Assembly (NCBI GenBank): GCA_040877935.1
Contig: JBBDNB010000033.1
Span: forward strand, 1 to 64,000
Reading direction: 5' to 3'
Length of the DNA stretch: 64,000 bases
From: Chitinophagales bacterium
GTDB lineage: Bacteria > Bacteroidota > Bacteroidia > Chitinophagales > CAIOSU01
Shown here: positions 31,092-50,978 of the stretch, piece by piece
Numbering within the stretch: position 1 is the stretch's first letter
Layout of the letters: each line of letters opens with the position of its first letter
Program-made: the position numbers and the translations under genes
The notes under the pieces: generated by a model
Seen by the model: the letters and a program-made list of their open reading frames with translations, nothing else
Told to the model about the DNA's origin: nothing
Database searches by the model: none

Positions 31092-31099
31092 TATTTTTG
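31092..31099 (+). promoter_or_regulatory. Candidate -7 element upstream of the gldL-gldM unit
   Basis: TATTTTTG matches TAnnTTTG, giving a leader of about 80 bases to the gldL start at 31185. No TTG is at the expected -33 spacing. Confidence 0.35.
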
Positions 31100-31184
31100 A
31101 TTTAAATGCACTACCTGTCTGTATAACTCTTTGAAAATATTGCTATATTAGCACACTTATAAAAAAGACCCTAATAAATTTTGA

Positions 31185-31709
31185 ATGCTTATGGCAACTA
31201 AAAAGAGAGAAAAGTTCAGTGCATTTAACCTGGCATATGGAATTGGAGCATCTATCGTATTGACAGGAGTACTTTTCAAGTTTTTACACTGGGAATATGC
31301 CAATGAAATGTTATTTGTAGGATTATCCACCGAGGCAATTCTGTTTTTCGTTTCTGCATGGGAAAAAGTGGACACCGGATACAAGTGGGAGAAAGTTTTC
31401 CCACAACTTTCCAAGGAAGGGGAAACCAGTGCCGAGCAATTGGAAAAAGCAGTGGAAAATGCCATTGAAAAAGCCAACATGGATCCCCAGGTAGTTGAAA
31501 AACTCAGCAAAAGCATGGAGTTGATGGAACAGAACATTACCAAGATGGCTGAAGCCTCCAAAGCCGCAAACCTGCAAGACCAAATCAGCCGTTTGCAATC
31601 TGCTACTGAAAATTTTGAACATGAAATTTCAAAATTGAATAAAAATGTGGCTGAAATGAATAAGTATTATGAAAAAATGCTTGCTGTAATGGGCAACCGT
31701 GAAGCATGA
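31185..31709 (+). CDS. gldL: GldL-family inner-membrane motor protein
   Basis: A 174-residue protein (172 from ATG 31191) with two membrane helices (about 16-34 and 40-59) separated by a short turn, then a cytoplasmic helical coiled-coil tail (about 75-170). The key charged residues of the GldL membrane motor are kept: Lys32 in GVLFKFLHW, with His35 next to it, and Glu50 in LSTEAILFF. GldL and GldM form a 5:2 proton-driven motor that powers type IX secretion and gliding. In this locus the gene begins a three-gene unit with gldM and an outer-membrane fusion protein, without gldK or gldN. Confidence 0.9.
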   Translation: MLMATKKREKFSAFNLAYGIGASIVLTGVLFKFLHWEYANEMLFVGLSTEAILFFVSAWEKVDTGYKWEKVFPQLSKEGETSAEQLEKAVENAIEKANMDPQVVEKLSKSMELMEQNITKMAEASKAANLQDQISRLQSATENFEHEISKLNKNVAEMNKYYEKMLAVMGNREA

Positions 31710-31770
31710 TCAAACACCCGGGCATACTTATTCCACTTTCTAATACAAAATATCATTAACCGCGAGGAGA

Positions 31771-33390
31771 ATGCAAAACAATCAATCACTACGACAGAAA
31801 ATGATCAATATGCTTTATTTGGTATTGATCGGAATGGTATTTATGAATCCGGTACTCGATTTCATTGAATTGTTTACTGATATGAACAAAACCCTAGAAA
31901 GGGCCAATTACAGAATTGAGCAGAAAAACAATCAAACACTAAAAACACTAAAAAGGGTTTTGGAAGCTGATTCTGCTAAATACCATGGTATATACAGCAA
32001 GCTTGAAAAAGCCCGGATGATCAGCGACACTACTATTAACTTTCTGGATTCCATAAAAAACAGTCTAATAATCGAATCGGGCGGATACAGAGGAATGCAC
32101 ATAAAATCTGCAAAAGATGCAACCATGTCTCACCGGAAAATGATTAAAGATGGTGTGGCCTTGGACATCAAAGAAAGATTGGAGACAGTCAAAAGCCAAC
32201 TGCTTAACCTTATGGACGAATCTGAAACTGCCATGCTCGACACTGTTCTTATTACCACAGATACTCTCAGAAAAATAGATGGAAATCTAATGGAATGGGA
32301 GAAATATTACTTCGATGAAGTCCCATTAAATGCTGTTATCGCTTTACTCACTAAATTTCAAAATGATATCCGACTCTCACAGTCAATGGTAATAAAAAAA
32401 TACTATGATATTACAGAAAGAGGTTTCGATGTTTCTATGACAACGCCTGAAGCCGTTGAACTCGACACCATTTTGTTAGAAAAAGGAGTACGCAAGTTTG
32501 ATGTATTTGACATTGGAGATGATGGTACCGCCCGGATAATTATACCCAATATTCCAAAACAATCACTCGGTGATGCAATGATTTATCAATATGATGATGC
32601 AGGAAATATAATCGATAGTTTTGCATTTAAAAACGGAGTAGGTGAAATAGAACTGAACACCAGTCAAATAGGTGAGTTTAAGGTAAAAGGAGTTGTTAAA
32701 TTCAGATATCCCGCTCCTAAAGACCCACAAGCCAAAGAATCAGGTAAAATCCAAGATGAAACCCTAACTCAAGAATACCCCTTTGAAATAAATTACGATG
32801 TAATTAATCCACAGCCACACATCAGTCAAAAAGATTTCAATGTTTTATATGTTGGAGTGAATAATCCTATTAAAGTAAACCACCCTGAGCACAATCGTGA
32901 GAAATACGAAGTCACTATTAGCCAGGGAGAAATAATAGATAATGGTGAAGAGTTTTTTGCTCGTGTAAACCGCACTGGATTTGCCTATGTCACATTAAAA
33001 ATACCGGATAAAAATGGTGCGATGAAAACCGTAAATACTGAGAAATTTATGGTCAAAGAACTACCTAAACCAACAGCTAAAGTTTACAATCGCGTAGGAG
33101 GTGACATGCCTTCAAAACTATTCAAACAGCAGAAAGGATTAAAAGTAGAATTGGACAACCTTCCTTATGATGCAAATTACAGGGTTGTAGAGTACAAAAT
33201 CACCTATATTAATTCCAATGGACTTGGAATATTTCGTGAAAAGGTAAAAGGTTCTTATTTTACAGGACGTGCCAAAGAATTAGTTGATCTGGCTCAACCT
33301 GGTGACATCTTTATTTTTGAAGAGATTTTTGTAAAAGGGCCAAACGGCAAAAATGAGGAAATTGAATCCTTAGTATTTAATATTAAATAA
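31771..33390 (+). CDS. gldM: GldM-family motor shaft protein
   Basis: A 539-residue protein with a single N-terminal membrane helix following the GldM signature LRQKMINMLYLVLIGMVFMN (7-26), then a long periplasmic part. Residues 40-235 correspond to the helical first domain (FDEVPLNAVIALLTKFQNDIR near 184-204); the remaining 300 residues are beta-rich, as in the D2-D4 domains that carry torque to the outer membrane, with ITYINSNG and IFEEIFVKGPNGK near the end. Size equals canonical GldM. It starts 61 bp after gldL and ends 8 bp before the outer-membrane gene, so all three should be one transcript. Confidence 0.9.
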   Translation: MQNNQSLRQKMINMLYLVLIGMVFMNPVLDFIELFTDMNKTLERANYRIEQKNNQTLKTLKRVLEADSAKYHGIYSKLEKARMISDTTINFLDSIKNSLIIESGGYRGMHIKSAKDATMSHRKMIKDGVALDIKERLETVKSQLLNLMDESETAMLDTVLITTDTLRKIDGNLMEWEKYYFDEVPLNAVIALLTKFQNDIRLSQSMVIKKYYDITERGFDVSMTTPEAVELDTILLEKGVRKFDVFDIGDDGTARIIIPNIPKQSLGDAMIYQYDDAGNIIDSFAFKNGVGEIELNTSQIGEFKVKGVVKFRYPAPKDPQAKESGKIQDETLTQEYPFEINYDVINPQPHISQKDFNVLYVGVNNPIKVNHPEHNREKYEVTISQGEIIDNGEEFFARVNRTGFAYVTLKIPDKNGAMKTVNTEKFMVKELPKPTAKVYNRVGGDMPSKLFKQQKGLKVELDNLPYDANYRVVEYKITYINSNGLGIFREKVKGSYFTGRAKELVDLAQPGDIFIFEEIFVKGPNGKNEEIESLVFNIK

Positions 33391-33398
33391 ACATCATC

Positions 33399-35951
33399 AT
33401 GTTCGATTTTAAAAAACTGGCAACCATCACTCTGATATTAGGGGTTTTTCAAATAATCAGCCCTCCTACTGTCTTCGCTCAATCAGAAGGAAGTAATGCA
33501 AATACTGACACAACAGTATTGGAAGGTTTTATTGAATCAGATCGCTCCTTGAGCTCAGGGAAAATTTATCTTGTACAGCACAATGTTAAAGTTGATAAAC
33601 AAGCTACTTTAAGCATTCCAGCCAATGTAACCATACTGTTTGACGAAAACACAACCATAGTAGTAGAGGGTGGATTAAATATAGAAGGCAGTCCAAATAA
33701 TTTTGTTGTATTGAGTTCTAAAAACCCTGAATTTCTTGGTGAAGGAATTACTGTAAGAGGTGAATCCGACAGCAAAAACATCAATATCAGCTATGCTACT
33801 TTCAACAAACTTACAATGCCTTTGCAATTTGACATGGATTGGTACAGACCATCTGTGAATATAGAAAACAATATTTTCAAAGGAATTAATACAGGTGAAT
33901 CTGCTATTTCCATATCCAGCCCTTTAGTTACATTTCAGAACACCGCGAATAAAAAAGTAGAATTCGTATTTTCTAAAAATAATTTCGTCAACAACTGGGC
34001 ATCAATTTTTATTGAAAATTTCCAGGACAATATTATGGATCTGAGATTTAGAAATAACCTGATCAGCAATAATGTAGTCTATGGATTAGATAAAGGTATT
34101 CCTTCAAATACCCCATTATTTGGAATTTATGATCAAGAAGATAAAAGATTTCAAGCCCAGATTACGGACAATTCAATATTTGGAAATTACCAGATCAATG
34201 CAAGCAATGATACTGTTATAAGAGAAATTAGTCTTGGAATACAAGGATCCGGAGAAAAATTCATGATAGAGAACAATTTCTTCAGATCCACTGATCCTGA
34301 TTATATTTCTTCAACTTTTGATCATTTTTATCAGAATAACTCTCTGCCATTAATGATTTCAAACAACACTAAAGACACCCCTTCTGCCAGTGCACATGGA
34401 CAAATATATAAAGTAGAAATTAATGGAGAAGCAGTTCCAGACTATGCGAAAATACCTGATGTGAGTTCAGCAGACGTTTCATTTACTGTTTATTTTAACA
34501 GACCGGTAAGAGAATTGGAAAATGAACATCTGAAATCCGTTTATTACGATACGATCAACAATCAAATAGTATCAAACGATGTTGGCATTAGCAATGCTTC
34601 ATTCAATGAGGACAATACGGTGTATGCTTTTAAACTGACCAATTCTTCCATATTAAAAAATGCACTGGGTTATCTCGTTCTAATGGGCTTTGAAGATCAG
34701 GAAGGCTTTGAAGTACCTGATTTTACAATTGGACAGCAAAATGCCATAAACCGCTACGGCAAAATGTATCAGGAAGGGCTTGCAAGCACTTATATCCCTC
34801 CTGCAGAGGTTATCAGCAACAGAGGTGGCTATGTTCCTGAAGAAACAGATCTTGAAACTTTAGAGTCATTGAATGAATTGGGAGACTTGAGTTATCTGGG
34901 TGCCTATACCTCTTTGGCCAAAACCTGGGAAGTTGGGGTTATGGCAGGTGCCTCAAACTATATGGGTGAAATGAGCTCAAAACTTATGGATAAAAATGAG
35001 TTCAATTTATCCCTCGGTGCCTATGCACAATATAATATTTCCAAATGGTTTTCAGCCCGATTAGGCTTTTTATATGCACGTATTTCAGGACTTGAAATTA
35101 ACGACCCGGAACAAATCAGGCAAAAAAGAAACGGAAACTTCAGGAATGATATTTTTGAAGGAAGTCTATTATTACACTTCCACGTTTTACAGTATGGTAT
35201 CTCAAAAGGAGAGAAATTCTCGCCCAGTATATTTGCAGGTATAAGTGCATTTTATCACAATCCTCAATCGAGGATTATGCTGGGCAGAAATGCCAATGAT
35301 GAGCCGGTCTATTATCAGATAGATGATAAAGATGTTTGGATCAATTTGAGAGAAGTAGGAACAGAAGGTCAGACTGTAGGAAGACCTGATTCAGATCCCA
35401 ATAGTGTTGCTATTAACGGAAGACAACCACCTGAAAAATATAGCAAAGTAGCTATTTCTGTCCCAATGGGAGTAGCCTTTGATTTTATTATACAAAAATC
35501 GTGGGTGATTGGTCTTGAAGCCGGCTTTAGACTTACATTTACTGATTATCTCGATGATGTTAGCGGATACTATTACGACAGGGCCAATTTGCACCAGGCC
35601 ATAGTTGATCAAAATTCAACCATAACAGGACAAACCGGTGGTGTATTTATAAAAGATGAAATTACTTTTAGTGACAATGCTGCTGATCCAAGTAGAAGCA
35701 CTACTGTTCAAACAGAAGGTGGAGAATGGCATATGGCTCAATTGGTAAGCAATCAATCGCTCTACAAATTACCCAATTCAGAAGAATCTGCTAGCTCTGG
35801 AGCTAATCATGCCACAGATTTTGGTTCAGGAAGAAGAGGTTCCATAAACAGAGACTGGTTCGCTTTCTTTGGTATTAAAGTCAGTAAAGTCTTTGGTTTT
35901 GACCGCTACAAGAAAAAGCAAGATAAAGAGCTTGCCGGAGAAGAATTATAA
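33399..35951 (+). CDS. Outer-membrane protein: beta-helix-like region fused to PorG-like barrel
   Basis: An 850-residue protein with a signal peptide (1-28, ending TVFAQ). Residues about 40-330 look like a right-handed parallel beta-helix: repeated short strands with Asn ladders such as SVNIENNIFKGI, FVFSKNNFVNNWASIFIENF, LRFRNNLISNNVVYGL and QITDNSIFG. Residues about 345-440 resemble an Ig-like domain (VSFTVYFNRPVRELE, YAFKLTNSSI). From about 500, WEVGVMAGASNYMGEMSSK and the strand pattern up to WFAFFGIKVSKVFGF match the DUF6089/PorG type barrel. PorG links to GldK/GldN in the type IX system. Here the barrel carries its own periplasmic or surface helix domain and is encoded 8 bp after gldM. 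Confidence 0.8.
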   Translation: MFDFKKLATITLILGVFQIISPPTVFAQSEGSNANTDTTVLEGFIESDRSLSSGKIYLVQHNVKVDKQATLSIPANVTILFDENTTIVVEGGLNIEGSPNNFVVLSSKNPEFLGEGITVRGESDSKNINISYATFNKLTMPLQFDMDWYRPSVNIENNIFKGINTGESAISISSPLVTFQNTANKKVEFVFSKNNFVNNWASIFIENFQDNIMDLRFRNNLISNNVVYGLDKGIPSNTPLFGIYDQEDKRFQAQITDNSIFGNYQINASNDTVIREISLGIQGSGEKFMIENNFFRSTDPDYISSTFDHFYQNNSLPLMISNNTKDTPSASAHGQIYKVEINGEAVPDYAKIPDVSSADVSFTVYFNRPVRELENEHLKSVYYDTINNQIVSNDVGISNASFNEDNTVYAFKLTNSSILKNALGYLVLMGFEDQEGFEVPDFTIGQQNAINRYGKMYQEGLASTYIPPAEVISNRGGYVPEETDLETLESLNELGDLSYLGAYTSLAKTWEVGVMAGASNYMGEMSSKLMDKNEFNLSLGAYAQYNISKWFSARLGFLYARISGLEINDPEQIRQKRNGNFRNDIFEGSLLLHFHVLQYGISKGEKFSPSIFAGISAFYHNPQSRIMLGRNANDEPVYYQIDDKDVWINLREVGTEGQTVGRPDSDPNSVAINGRQPPEKYSKVAISVPMGVAFDFIIQKSWVIGLEAGFRLTFTDYLDDVSGYYYDRANLHQAIVDQNSTITGQTGGVFIKDEITFSDNAADPSRSTTVQTEGGEWHMAQLVSNQSLYKLPNSEESASSGANHATDFGSGRRGSINRDWFAFFGIKVSKVFGFDRYKKKQDKELAGEEL

Positions 35952-35973
35952 TTCTAAATGCAGCACCTATATA

Positions 35974-36011
35974 AAAAAGCGGGCTGGAAAATTTTCCAGC
36001 CCGCTTTTTTG
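35974..36011. terminator. Bidirectional rho-independent terminator
   Basis: A perfect 38-bp palindrome with a GC-rich stem centred on AAAATTTT and flanked by A6 and T6. It serves both the gldLM unit (plus strand) and clpX (minus strand, whose stop is at 36034). Confidence 0.92.
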
Positions 36012-46069: not shown

Positions 46070-46813
46070 CTATACTTTCTGGATAATTCCTACCAAAGTA
46101 TCATTTTCAGTTTTGTATCTTGCTTTTATTAGAAATGCCGGTTTTTCCTGGTCCTTGAGTTTTATTGAAAGACTAAAGTCTTTTTTCTTTTCAATTGCTT
46201 CTTCTATTGATGTTCCCAATTTTTCAGATGAAGCTTTATCAAGCAAATTTTGAAGATTTTTCAATGCATAGTTGCGTTGTACCTTCAGGCCAAGCAATTC
46301 CTTCAAATAAGACGTCATCCACAATTCTTTACTTTGCAGGTCCAATTTCCAATAACCCAGTTCAGCTATTTCCTGGGTTTCGTGAAATTGCATGGAGTTT
46401 TCATCCAATTCACGGACTCTTTGTTTGAGTTGAGCACGTTCAAACGCATAGCGTATAGATGAAGTAAGTACTTTTCCGTCAAACTGACCTTTTACAAGAA
46501 AATCCTGCGCACCAAGCTTGACCGTTTGTACTCCTAATTCATTATCTGACAGTCCTGTCAGAACAATCACCACTGATTCACCTCCATTTTCCAGAATCTG
46601 CTGCACGGTTTCCACGCCTTTGCTGTCGGGCAAATTCAAATCGAGCAGGACTACATCAATTTTATTTTTGGATAAAATGTCAAGTGCTGTATTTAGGTAT
46701 TCGGCATGAATAAACTCTGCTGTTTTAAAAATAGATTCTTCCAGGTAAAACTTCACCAAAAACGCATCACCGGGATTGTCTTCTACCAGCAATATTTTTA
46801 AATTTTTCTCCAT
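46070..46813 (-). CDS. Response regulator: receiver domain plus PAS-like domain
   Basis: A 247-residue protein. A receiver domain (about 5-123) has acidic residues ED11-12, phospho-acceptor Asp58 in VVLLDLNLP and Lys in FLVKGQFDG. The remainder (about 135-245) resembles a PAS/PAC domain (ETQEIAELGYWKLDLQSKELWMTSYLKELLG) and has no DNA-binding or enzymatic output, so it probably relays or senses through protein contacts. It is the third gene of a unit with the 1232-residue kinase and a single-domain regulator, one base apart. Confidence 0.87.
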   Translation of the reverse strand: MEKNLKILLVEDNPGDAFLVKFYLEESIFKTAEFIHAEYLNTALDILSKNKIDVVLLDLNLPDSKGVETVQQILENGGESVVIVLTGLSDNELGVQTVKLGAQDFLVKGQFDGKVLTSSIRYAFERAQLKQRVRELDENSMQFHETQEIAELGYWKLDLQSKELWMTSYLKELLGLKVQRNYALKNLQNLLDKASSEKLGTSIEEAIEKKKDFSLSIKLKDQEKPAFLIKARYKTENDTLVGIIQKV

Positions 46814-46814
46814 A

Positions 46815-47276
46815 CTATCCTAAATTTTTTGACTTGGGCAAACTGGCAATATCAAACCAAAAATTTTCAATCATATTAATTGCTCTACAAAATTCATCAT
46901 AATCTACCGGCTTTGTAAGATAACAATTGGCTCTTTCGCGATAGACCGACAAAATATCATTTTGAGCCTCTGATGAAGTTAACATAATAACAGGAAGATG
47001 AACCATGTCTGAATTATTTTTAATATCCTTTAACAACTCCAAGCCATTTTTCTTAGGTAAATTCAAGTCGAGAATAATTATATCCGGCAAATACGCTTCT
47101 TTATCTGCTGTAGATTTATCTTTTAGATATAATAATGCTTCTTCTCCATCATAGCAAACTTCGATTGATACATCAAAAGCACTGTCTTTGAATACTTCCT
47201 GTGTGAGCCGTATATCTCCGGGGTTGTCTTCTACCAGCAGTATTTTTATTTGCTTCTTGTTTACTTTTTGTACCAT
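46815..47276 (-). CDS. Single-domain response regulator (Rcp1-like)
   Basis: A 153-residue receiver domain: ED17-18, phospho-acceptor Asp70 in DIIILDLNLPKKNG, Thr/Ser in LTSSEAQND and Lys in YLTKPVDYDEF. The insert between strand 2 and the Asp (SKDKSTADKEAYLPD region) is typical of Rcp1-type regulators, which pair with phytochrome-like kinases. It begins 3 bp after the kinase stop and is almost certainly its cognate partner or one member of a short phosphorelay. Confidence 0.9.
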   Translation of the reverse strand: MVQKVNKKQIKILLVEDNPGDIRLTQEVFKDSAFDVSIEVCYDGEEALLYLKDKSTADKEAYLPDIIILDLNLPKKNGLELLKDIKNNSDMVHLPVIMLTSSEAQNDILSVYRERANCYLTKPVDYDEFCRAINMIENFWFDIASLPKSKNLG

Positions 47277-47279
47277 AAA

Positions 47280-50200
47280 CTATTTTTTAAGGTTGAAATA
47301 AAAAGCAGAACCCTTTCCGGCTTTAGATTTCACCCATATTTTTCCTCCGTGCCTTTCTACAATCTTCTTGCAAATAGCAAGCCCTATGCCTGTCCCCGAA
47401 TAATTTGCTCTATTATTTAAACGCTGGAAAATTACAAAAATACGTTCTGAAAATCTATCATCTATACCAATTCCATTGTCTTTTACCCAAATATTGTAGC
47501 GGTCTTTGTATTCTTTATAACCAATTTCTACAACAGGTGGACTGTCTCCACGAAACTTTATGGCATTTTCAATTAAATTTTGAAAGAGACTGTGCAATTG
47601 TGATTTATCTCCTTTTACTTTTGGCATTTTGCCATATTCAATTGTGGCATTGGCATTTTTAATAGAGTTTTGCAGCATCGTTTCCTGTACTTGCAATAGC
47701 TCATGTAGATCAATCATTTCAAAATCCCTGCCTGCTCTATCAACTCTTGAGTATTCTAAAAGATCATTTACTAAATCTTGCATACGAGCAGCTCCATCTG
47801 TTGCAAAATCCATAAACTCGTGAATTTCCCCGTTTATTGAATTTCCCAATCTCCTTTTGATTAAATGCACATAGCTGCTTACCATACGCAGGGGTTCTTG
47901 CAAATCATGCGAGGCAGCATATGCAAATTGTTCCAGGTCTTCATTGGAGCGTCTTAGTTCATCGGTTTGTGTTTCGAGTTCTTTTTGAATTTCTTTCAGA
48001 TTGGTAATGTCAATGGCTACGACCATTCCCATATATATATGGCCATTCTGATTCCTTACAGGAAGAAAATGCATTAAAAAATAAGTTTGCCCTATTTTTT
48101 TCTCCAGGGTAGATTCTTTTCCTATCAATGCATTTTTACAATAAGGTTCAAAAATATCGGCAAGTTCTTTGGCCAGTACTTTTCTAAGGGTTTTTCCTTC
48201 AATTTTTTCTCTGCTCAGGCCTGCACTTGCTAGTCCATCACCTTCTGAAAGTTTGAAACGTAGATTTTTATCATACAAAAACACTGAAGAGTTCGGGATG
48301 TTCTTGGCCAGTGTTCTGTATATTTCTTCTTGCTCAATTAACGATTCTTCTACTTTTTTGCGCTCCAGCGCATTAGCAAATACCTGTCCTAGTATTTTCA
48401 AAAGTGATAAAACATCTTCACTCCAATACAATTGTGATTTTTCAGATGTAAAACCGAGTGCTCCATAAAACTTATCCTCATAAGAAATTGGAACTACCAG
48501 TAATGAGGTAATATTTAGCAGGCTCATAATTGCCCGTAGATCTGAAGCCATAGGCGGAAGTTCTGAAACTTTGTTTATAGCCAGAACATTTTGACCTCTG
48601 AGTTGCTTAAATTCCCAAACATGATTTTTAGATGGGATATTTTTCAAGTACTGACTGCTAATATTTTCATGTTTTACAGACCAGTGATGGCTTAAATTAA
48701 ATGATTTACCTTCTTGATTTTTGAGTATAACAAATGCCTGGTCTACATTCAGAAATTCACCAACATGTTGTAAGGATTTCTTGATTTCTGCATTGGTTCG
48801 GGTTGAATCAATATTTATAAATTTAGAAGAGAGATGCGTAATAATCTTTTCCAGCTCCATCCTTTTACTGAGCTTTTGCTCTGCATTTCTCCTTTCCATT
48901 GCATTGGAAAAAACCTGGGTTAAAATCCTGAACAACGCAATGGTATCGGGATTCCATTGTTTTGCTTTTCTTGTATTTTCCAAAGAAAAATAGGCTACAG
49001 GTTTACCTTTCGAGAACATGGGCAATATCAACAATGATTTGATATTTGCCTGTTGTAAGAGTTCGTAATTTTTCGGCTTCTTTTTATATATGGCTTCTGC
49101 ATCCTTCAGTAAAAAATATCCATATTCAGTGACAGGTTTTAGTATCCAGTTCATATCCGTGGGTTTCAGTTTTTCAAACTCCTGTTTTACCTTTTCCCAT
49201 TCTTCTGGATTGCTATGCGTCCAGTATTTTGAGATCTTAATTTCATCATTTTCTACTGTAGTAATAATGGTGCGATCTACCTTAATGAATTTGCCGACAA
49301 TGGCCAGCGATTCTTCTAGAACCCTATCTATTTCAGTCCAATGTAAATTAATGAATTGTGCAGAGAGAGTCGCAATCATTTCTTTTAGGTCTAACTGAAA
49401 TTTCAATTCTTCCTCTGTTAATTTCCTGTCTGTGATTTCTGTAGACACACTTAAAACCTGAATCTCACTGCCATCAGGGGATTTTATTGGTGTTTTAATA
49501 GTTTGGAACCATCTGATATTGTCGGAAGTACCAACCTTTAATTCAGGCAATACCTGAATCAAACCCGTATTCAATGTTTGCAAGTCATAATTAAAAAGTT
49601 GCACATAAGCCTCTTTTTTTGACCAGCTTTCTTTTTCGGGATTCTTATTTATAATTTTTTTAACAGTCCCCGGGAAAAGTTTACTACATGCTTTGTTGAT
49701 CATCTGAATCACTCCTTCAGAATCTCTGACATAAATGGCATTGGGGTTTGCGTCAATAATATCTCTGAGGTATTGTTGCTGTTGACTGATGGCCTCTTCG
49801 GCCAATTTCACTTTAGTAATATCCTGACCTACAGATTGATACTCAATAAATTTTCCGTTTTCATCATAAATGGCCCGATCTGTCCATAGTTGCCAACGGA
49901 AACTGCCATCACGCATTTTAATGCGCTCGTCATATGTTACTACTGGGTTTTCAAATGTTAGTTGCGACAGCCTTTTTTTAAATTCAATTAACTCATTGCG
50001 GGGAATATTACCAAACAGGTTTTTGCCAATTATCATTTTTCTATCCAGGCCAAAATATTCGCAATAAGCCTTATTTGCAAAAGTAATAGTACCATTAGGC
50101 AAAAATCTTGAAATAAACTCAGTTTGGTCATCAACTACCGCTCTGTATCTTCTTTCGCTTGATTTTAGCTCAATGCCGGAAAGTTTTTTGGTAGTAATAT

Positions 50201-50978
50201 CATTACCAAAAATATTCACATAATTGTATTCTTGAATAGGAGAAAGTAGCAGTTCAAATATTCTGTTCCCTGCCGTAAGTTCAAATTCTTTATTTTTCTC
50301 ATCCTGCAAGTTTTTGCGGATAATTCTCTTCCAGAGGTCAGGCATCATTTCTCCTTGTTTAACCTCCCATTTTTGCAAAAGCTTACTACTGGCTTTATTG
50401 GCATATTCCAGTACTCCTTCGCCAGAAATACGCATTACCGGAAATGGGTTTTCATCAGGAATACGTGCCAGAATGGCCATTTCTCTTTGCTTGGATTTCT
50501 GATCTGTAATATCCCGTGCAATACAGGCAAAAAACTCGAAATTTCCTTTATTGTCTTTTTGTGTCCACAACATCAGTGAAAAGGGAACTACGCGTTGATC
50601 TTTGCTTGTAATATTTACTTCTCCTGACCATTTGTTTTTCTTAAACAGGGCTGGTACCGTTTCACTGAGAATTGTATCCAAACTTTCCGGTGCAAAAAAC
50701 TTCATGAGCTCTGGTCGCTCCAGTGCTACCTGATTTTTTATTCCGGTAAAGGATTTAAAGGCTTCATTGGCATAATTGAGCTTACCTTTTCCATCTGTAA
50801 TAAGTACTAAGTCTGATGTATTGTTGGTGACATTGAGCAATTGCCTGTTTTCAAAAGTAACTTTACTACTTTGCCTGGCAAAACTGTCAACTTGATTTGC
50901 GAGTGCTTCTTTCAACTGCTTATTTTCCAGTTCTAAATCAGCAATTTTATCTTTTAATGATTTATTTTGAACAGCCAT
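47280..50978 (-). CDS. Multi-PAS/GAF hybrid-free sensor histidine kinase
   Basis: A 1232-residue soluble kinase with no membrane segments. A coiled start (1-45) is followed by about four PAS domains (roughly 48-165, 175-270, 285-395 and 405-520), two GAF domains (about 545-700 and 715-875) and another PAS (about 885-990). The HisKA domain has phospho-acceptor His1024 in AYAASHDLQEP, and the HATPase carries N-box ENAIKF, DNGIGI and GTGIGLAICKKI. The GAF domains have no bilin Cys that I can place, so light sensing is not shown. Two response regulators follow immediately in the same unit. Confidence 0.9.
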   Translation of the reverse strand: MAVQNKSLKDKIADLELENKQLKEALANQVDSFARQSSKVTFENRQLLNVTNNTSDLVLITDGKGKLNYANEAFKSFTGIKNQVALERPELMKFFAPESLDTILSETVPALFKKNKWSGEVNITSKDQRVVPFSLMLWTQKDNKGNFEFFACIARDITDQKSKQREMAILARIPDENPFPVMRISGEGVLEYANKASSKLLQKWEVKQGEMMPDLWKRIIRKNLQDEKNKEFELTAGNRIFELLLSPIQEYNYVNIFGNDITTKKLSGIELKSSERRYRAVVDDQTEFISRFLPNGTITFANKAYCEYFGLDRKMIIGKNLFGNIPRNELIEFKKRLSQLTFENPVVTYDERIKMRDGSFRWQLWTDRAIYDENGKFIEYQSVGQDITKVKLAEEAISQQQQYLRDIIDANPNAIYVRDSEGVIQMINKACSKLFPGTVKKIINKNPEKESWSKKEAYVQLFNYDLQTLNTGLIQVLPELKVGTSDNIRWFQTIKTPIKSPDGSEIQVLSVSTEITDRKLTEEELKFQLDLKEMIATLSAQFINLHWTEIDRVLEESLAIVGKFIKVDRTIITTVENDEIKISKYWTHSNPEEWEKVKQEFEKLKPTDMNWILKPVTEYGYFLLKDAEAIYKKKPKNYELLQQANIKSLLILPMFSKGKPVAYFSLENTRKAKQWNPDTIALFRILTQVFSNAMERRNAEQKLSKRMELEKIITHLSSKFINIDSTRTNAEIKKSLQHVGEFLNVDQAFVILKNQEGKSFNLSHHWSVKHENISSQYLKNIPSKNHVWEFKQLRGQNVLAINKVSELPPMASDLRAIMSLLNITSLLVVPISYEDKFYGALGFTSEKSQLYWSEDVLSLLKILGQVFANALERKKVEESLIEQEEIYRTLAKNIPNSSVFLYDKNLRFKLSEGDGLASAGLSREKIEGKTLRKVLAKELADIFEPYCKNALIGKESTLEKKIGQTYFLMHFLPVRNQNGHIYMGMVVAIDITNLKEIQKELETQTDELRRSNEDLEQFAYAASHDLQEPLRMVSSYVHLIKRRLGNSINGEIHEFMDFATDGAARMQDLVNDLLEYSRVDRAGRDFEMIDLHELLQVQETMLQNSIKNANATIEYGKMPKVKGDKSQLHSLFQNLIENAIKFRGDSPPVVEIGYKEYKDRYNIWVKDNGIGIDDRFSERIFVIFQRLNNRANYSGTGIGLAICKKIVERHGGKIWVKSKAGKGSAFYFNLKK

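Follow-up and report, generated by a model that had tools for sequence, protein, structure and literature searches.

Inner-membrane proton motors that pass force to the outer membrane include ExbB-ExbD-TonB and TolQ-TolR-TolA. The unit described here resembles them by analogy only; the protein families and partners differ. Few rotary proton motors are known; the GldLM motor of the type IX secretion system (T9SS) is one of them, and the route by which its motion is passed on to the outer membrane is still to be explained. In F. johnsoniae, Glu49 of GldL is essential and has a proton-harvesting role, and residue 59 is needed for gliding, but not for secretion (PMC8986121). PorG, an 8-strand barrel, is disulfide-linked to GldK (PorK) by a cysteine in its periplasmic C-terminal tail (PMC12635249). 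The AglR-AglQ-AglS motor of Myxococcus possesses two axle proteins, AglQ and AglS, which are MotB homologues (PMC9389320).

A three-gene unit related to GldLM and PorG was analysed in DNA of a Chitinophagales bacterium (assembly GCA_040877935.1, contig JBBDNB010000033.1, positions 1-64,000 of the forward strand); this whole stretch of 64,000 nt is referred to as the window. The motor proteins of the unit are designated GldL2 and GldM2, and its features are as follows.

31191..31709 (alternative start 31185), plus strand: gldL2, a GldL-type motor subunit with two helices and a tail of short coiled coil; its length is 172 aa, or 174 aa with the alternative start
31771..33390, plus strand: gldM2, a GldM-type motor axle with periplasmic shaft; 539 aa
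33399..35951, plus strand: third gene, after gldM2 in all units read; outer-membrane partner of 850 aa with signal peptide, beta-helix, Ig-like part and PorG-like barrel; DUF6089/PorG matches
33507..34268, plus strand: parallel beta-helix domain of the third protein, residues about 37-290, from AF2 and VIA-align, with low model confidence from about residue 220
34401..34733, plus strand: Ig-like beta domain of the third protein, residues about 335-445, from the strand pattern and AF2 (block pLDDT 59-91)
34911..35897, plus strand: 8-strand PorG-like barrel of the third protein, residues about 505-833, from DUF6089, NF052316 and VIA-align; the motifs TEGQ and FTDYLDD are present, a C-tail cysteine is absent
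35973..36010, no strand: perfect palindrome of 38 bp containing A and T tracts, AAAAAAGCGGGCTGGAAAATTTTCCAGCCCGCTTTTTT, read from the sequence, between the third gene and the convergent clpX

The genes are separated by 61 bp (gldL2 to gldM2) and 8 bp (gldM2 to the third gene). The palindrome was absent from the list of the motif scan, though present in the sequence letters, and is likely a bidirectional terminator between the unit and clpX. Open reading frames, lengths, gaps and the palindrome at the unit's end had been reported in an earlier reading of the sequence alone (the sequence-only reading) and were all as claimed upon re-reading. With the canonical GldLM motor the unit shares the Lys/Glu pair in the transmembrane part of GldL, a GldM that has the domains D1, D3 and D4 in the periplasm besides its transmembrane helix, and the gldL-gldM order. 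It differs from it in the lack of gldK and gldN, in the beta-helix/PorG-like gene that always comes next and in a separate GldM clade.

Neither gldK nor gldN adjoined the unit in the window or the other units checked for them; gldN was located at a distance of about 190 kb or on a different contig. The sequence-only reading had noted the lack of both genes and proposed a separate unit, unless the genome had no other gldL and gldM. A search for a canonical set revealed PorP/SprF, GldK, GldL, GldM and GldN in one locus on contig C45 of the same genome, all over their cut-offs; gldK and gldN thus sit beside a gldL and gldM of their own, and the claim of a separate unit held. The gldL and gldM of the window pass the T9SS models as well, as they would if the unit were the main T9SS motor with a split gene order, but this explanation is refuted because the genome contains the complete gldK-L-M-N set with the PorP/SprF gene on C45. 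Contig C27 encodes two PorG proteins side by side, both of which score over the cut-off. Among the carriers of the unit, GldN was over its cut-off in 21 of 23, the exceptions being G006 (90% complete) and G021 (57% complete). GldM was over its cut-off outside the unit in 15 of 16 carriers, again with the exception of G021, and a PorG-family protein in 20 of the 20 carriers tested.

GldM2 of the window exceeded the cut-off of NCBIfam TIGR03517 (188.8 vs 180 bits), whereas the copies in other families stayed below it. The Pfam domains GldM_1st, GldM_3rd and GldM_4th were recognised, and Arg8 was invariant in the 11 GldM2 rows aligned. Identity was 49-51% to the proteins of six other genomes of its family and about 25% to canonical GldM. 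In a maximum-likelihood tree, 14 GldM2 from six families stood opposite 36 canonical GldM across one branch with a support of 100/100, and GldM2 did not group with GldM of gldKLMN loci. Within the GldM2 clade, the rows of the window's order split off from the remaining ones. This tree, which had been suggested together with the sequence-only reading, supports a distinct motor. Its topology is consistent with an old duplication and later losses in scattered lineages; transfer may also have contributed to the distribution of GldM2. In genus g3, an extra GldM was observed that belongs to the canonical clade, is about 41% identical to the canonical one and has no adjoining gldL or gldN (L035 8323-9951; L036 7192-8820).

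GldL2 was also over its cut-off (NCBIfam TIGR03513, 111.3 vs 68.3 bits), matched GldL_N of Pfam (PF22827, E 5e-25) and was 49-57% identical to its counterparts elsewhere in the window's family. It is shorter than canonical GldL, with about 160-190 aa in most copies compared to 202-288 aa. Counted from the start at 31185, Lys32 and Glu50 are present as previously read from the letters, and both were invariant in 26 of 26 GldL copies of the unit as well as in 25 of 25 canonical GldLs with letters at these positions. Glu50 is the equivalent of Glu49 in F. johnsoniae. The kept residues are consistent with a proton-driven 5:2 rotary motor, in which two GldM are surrounded by five GldL. Where F. johnsoniae GldL has Glu59, canonical GldL of the window's genome (L003 7165-7893) has Leu and GldL2 (window 31185-31709) has Glu. 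Most genomes compared of the window's order follow this pattern; in other families it is mixed, and a link of residue 59 to the unit was dropped as evidence.

The third protein had been described by the sequence-only reading as a beta-helix with an Ig-like part and a PorG-like barrel, an idea that a predicted structure lacking the beta-helix would weaken. AF2 did give a beta-helix, and the whole architecture was supported by AF2, VIA-align and the DUF6089 and NF052316 matches. The full-length model reached a mean pLDDT of 54.8 with blocks of residues 41-160 at 83-91, and the N-terminal part alone a pTM of 0.70. Residues about 220-330 were poorly modelled despite high conservation. Eight long barrel strands were predicted at 509-832. 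In VIA-align, the barrel resembled OprF (Z 17.7) and OmpA (Z 16.7), and the beta-helix pectate/alginate lyases (PL3/PL6) and related beta-helices (Z 14-17). No solved structure akin by sequence was found at E<=1 and no enzyme family was matched in Pfam or NCBIfam. A polar stretch, NNVVYG..PSN..NYQ..IRE, is strongly conserved.

The C-terminal part matched DUF6089 (Pfam, E 1e-18) and PorG NF052316 (E 2.8e-30), the latter with 105.7 bits under the cut-off of 130 bits, which the barrel of G195 passed with 132.6 bits. Like PorG, the third protein has the DUF6089/PorG 8-strand barrel and, in most of 26 copies, the motifs TEGQ and F(T)DYLDD; from the way the strands are ordered in the model, these would lie in outer loops of the barrel. 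It differs from PorG in the beta-helix and Ig-like part added in front, in its place in a motor operon and in the lack of a C-tail cysteine. The window's copy contains no cysteine at all, and none is conserved in the last 60 residues of the 26 copies. The few cysteines seen are in added TSP3-like repeats of G001 and, once, near the end in G858. The top-scoring PorG of the window's genome carries Cys269 in its tail. Since one of the two over-cut-off PorG proteins of that genome (318 aa) is also free of cysteine, the loss is not unique to the unit. Still, a partner that has ceased to use the ring would be expected to lack this cysteine, and its absence while the PorG motifs are kept suggests that a PorG-type barrel was released from the ring and acquired a periplasmic domain of its own. 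Near bamA in the window's genome, two adjacent PorG genes were observed (L037 5212-7067), one with a C-tail cysteine and the other with none.

In total, 27 complete units were read from seven families of the class Bacteroidia (f1 6, f14 1, f32 8, f52 1, f56 1, f59 1, f74 9), in addition to partial ones at contig ends. The order was always gldL, gldM, in some cases a second gldM, and the third gene. This recurrence, for which a gene-order survey had been proposed along with the sequence-only reading, supports a conserved motor unit. The flanking genes vary among the families (BshC, a CN-hydrolase/acetyltransferase gene, clpX and others); the gene order being conserved against changing flanks is good evidence that the unit is functional. 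For the same variation, the neighbourhood gave no clue to function. An upstream gene of about 540 aa that was seen repeatedly was likewise discarded, as its product in the window's family is unrelated to those in the other families. GldM2 was present in all seven genomes of the window's family, and two further carriers were found in the order Chitinophagales (G019 and G021). The N-terminal domain of the third protein was matched in 15 of 395 sampled genomes of the class and, in two families, in 9 of 38 and 21 of 64 genomes, the latter being strong matches with E below 1e-20. Outside the class Bacteroidia, only weak, partial matches were obtained.

Several variants of the unit were detected. 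In f32, two tandem and strongly diverged GldM-like genes are located between gldL and the third gene (L099 6860-9630, L100 3315-6109, L101 6814-9595, L102 3346-6101, also L152-L154), which differs from the canonical motor. In the f32 copy scanned, neither was recognised by any Pfam model, but both were end-to-end GldM relatives in a profile comparison (probability 98.3 and 99.2). Only the second gene of the tandem has the N-terminal Arg, which is kept by GldM-B and missing in GldM-A. This pair suggests a heterodimeric motor axle. With one ring-type subunit and two axle-type genes, the f32 unit is similar to AglR-AglQ-AglS, though this is a resemblance only. G893, also of f32, has a single GldM. 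A protein of about 170 aa with signal-like start, coiled coil and transmembrane segment was observed directly upstream of gldL in f32 (L099 10132-10659, L101 10106-10618, L102 2304-2828, L100 2305-2805); these small proteins are interrelated, but no family was matched over its cut-off.

In the f52 unit (L091 6003-12351), the beta-helix protein stops short of the barrel and is followed by two PD40-OmpA genes of the PorE/CHU_0125 type, the first of which overlaps the beta-helix gene by 4 bp. G001 (L032 2989-9056) contains two tandem third genes; in each of them, TSP3-like (DxDxDG) repeats follow the barrel. In G307 of f74 (L098 5991-8196), the Ig-like part and the barrel are encoded in separate, overlapping reading frames, and this split of the third gene may reflect two proteins or a frameshift.

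The unit is, somewhat more probably than not in our estimation, a second and dedicated proton motor of the GldLM type that works with an outer-membrane partner of its own and bypasses the GldK/GldN ring. In favour of this are the constant gene order amid differing flanks, the separate GldM2 clade, the canonical gldM, gldN and PorG that carriers keep elsewhere (apart from the two incomplete genomes), the invariant Lys and Glu of GldL and the missing C-tail cysteine. GldL2 and GldM2 would assemble as an inner-membrane motor, in which the conserved GldL glutamate would harvest the proton gradient and move the GldM2 shaft, presumably by rotation and with a GldLM-like stoichiometry. The tip of GldM2 would contact the beta-helix/Ig part in the periplasm instead of the GldK/GldN ring, and force could then reach the fused PorG-like barrel directly. 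Such action of GldM on the beta-helix had been put forward in the sequence-only reading, where surface movement, polymer export or a dedicated substrate were named as tasks that the unit might serve. The beta-helix is probably on the periplasmic side: both ends of an 8-strand barrel are periplasmic, which would place it within reach of GldM2, and this position agrees with the f52 version, where the beta-helix protein is separate and barrel-free. The clients of the barrel are probably PorG-like, that is, T9SS-type outer-membrane machinery, because the PorG motifs are kept. The barrel-free third protein of f52 and the low AF2 confidence in parts count against such a direct drive. More tentatively, and with rather less confidence than for a dedicated motor as such, the unit may be an undescribed trans-envelope machine of Bacteroidota, in which a GldLM motor drives a PorG-like barrel via a beta-helix independently of the GldKN ring/track, the axle in one family being an obligate pair of GldM proteins of which one has the N-terminal Arg.

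The chief rival explanation is that GldL2 and GldM2 are extra motors of the ordinary T9SS that drive the canonical GldK/GldN ring, with the third protein as a PorG variant there. Both proteins pass the equivalog cut-offs of T9SS motors, nearly all carriers tested also possess GldN, the barrel keeps TEGQ and FTDYLDD, and GldM2 may contact the canonical GldN ring since its D3-D4 tip, which contacts the ring in PorM, is present. This explanation is nevertheless unlikely given the separate clade of GldM2 with about 25% identity to canonical GldM, the distance of the unit from gldK and gldN, the lack of a conserved C-tail cysteine for the link to GldK and a linked partner that is always a beta-helix protein.

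Two further explanations concern the beta-helix itself. It could be a glycan-binding or -processing module, the unit powering export, display or remodelling of surface or periplasmic polysaccharide. The top fold matches (polysaccharide lyases, periplasmic alginate epimerase and tailspike depolymerases, Z 14-17) and the conserved polar stretch would fit such a role, but a common beta-helix fold is no proof of function, an enzyme match is missing in Pfam and NCBIfam, and no recurrent polysaccharide genes were seen by the unit, its flanks being partly annotated; this function is regarded as quite improbable. Export of an autotransporter-like third protein, energised by the motor and with the beta-helix displayed outside the cell, is a very remote prospect. 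An N-terminal beta-helix with a C-terminal barrel recalls type V secretion, and AaaA and EstA were among the Foldseek matches. However, the barrel is of the 8-strand OmpA/OmpW type and PorG-related, not 12-stranded, and the f52 beta-helix occurs without a barrel.

In the open-licence papers searched, a second gldL-gldM pair accompanied by a PorG-like partner was not found to be described. The parts of the unit are of known kinds; their combination and its conservation were not found there. Because current models label the two motor genes as T9SS GldL and GldM, annotation conceals the unit, which also affects how many T9SS motors are counted per genome. A second motor beside the secretion/gliding motor in many Bacteroidota points to an undescribed machine for energy transfer from the inner to the outer membrane. 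If this holds true, a simpler motor with one partner would isolate energy transfer from the large GldKN ring/track and should be easier to reconstitute, and the version with two GldM is a natural test of whether the two subunits of the axle differ in their role.

Elsewhere in the window (46070-50978, minus strand), a PAS/GAF histidine kinase of 1232 aa is encoded together with two single response-regulator genes.
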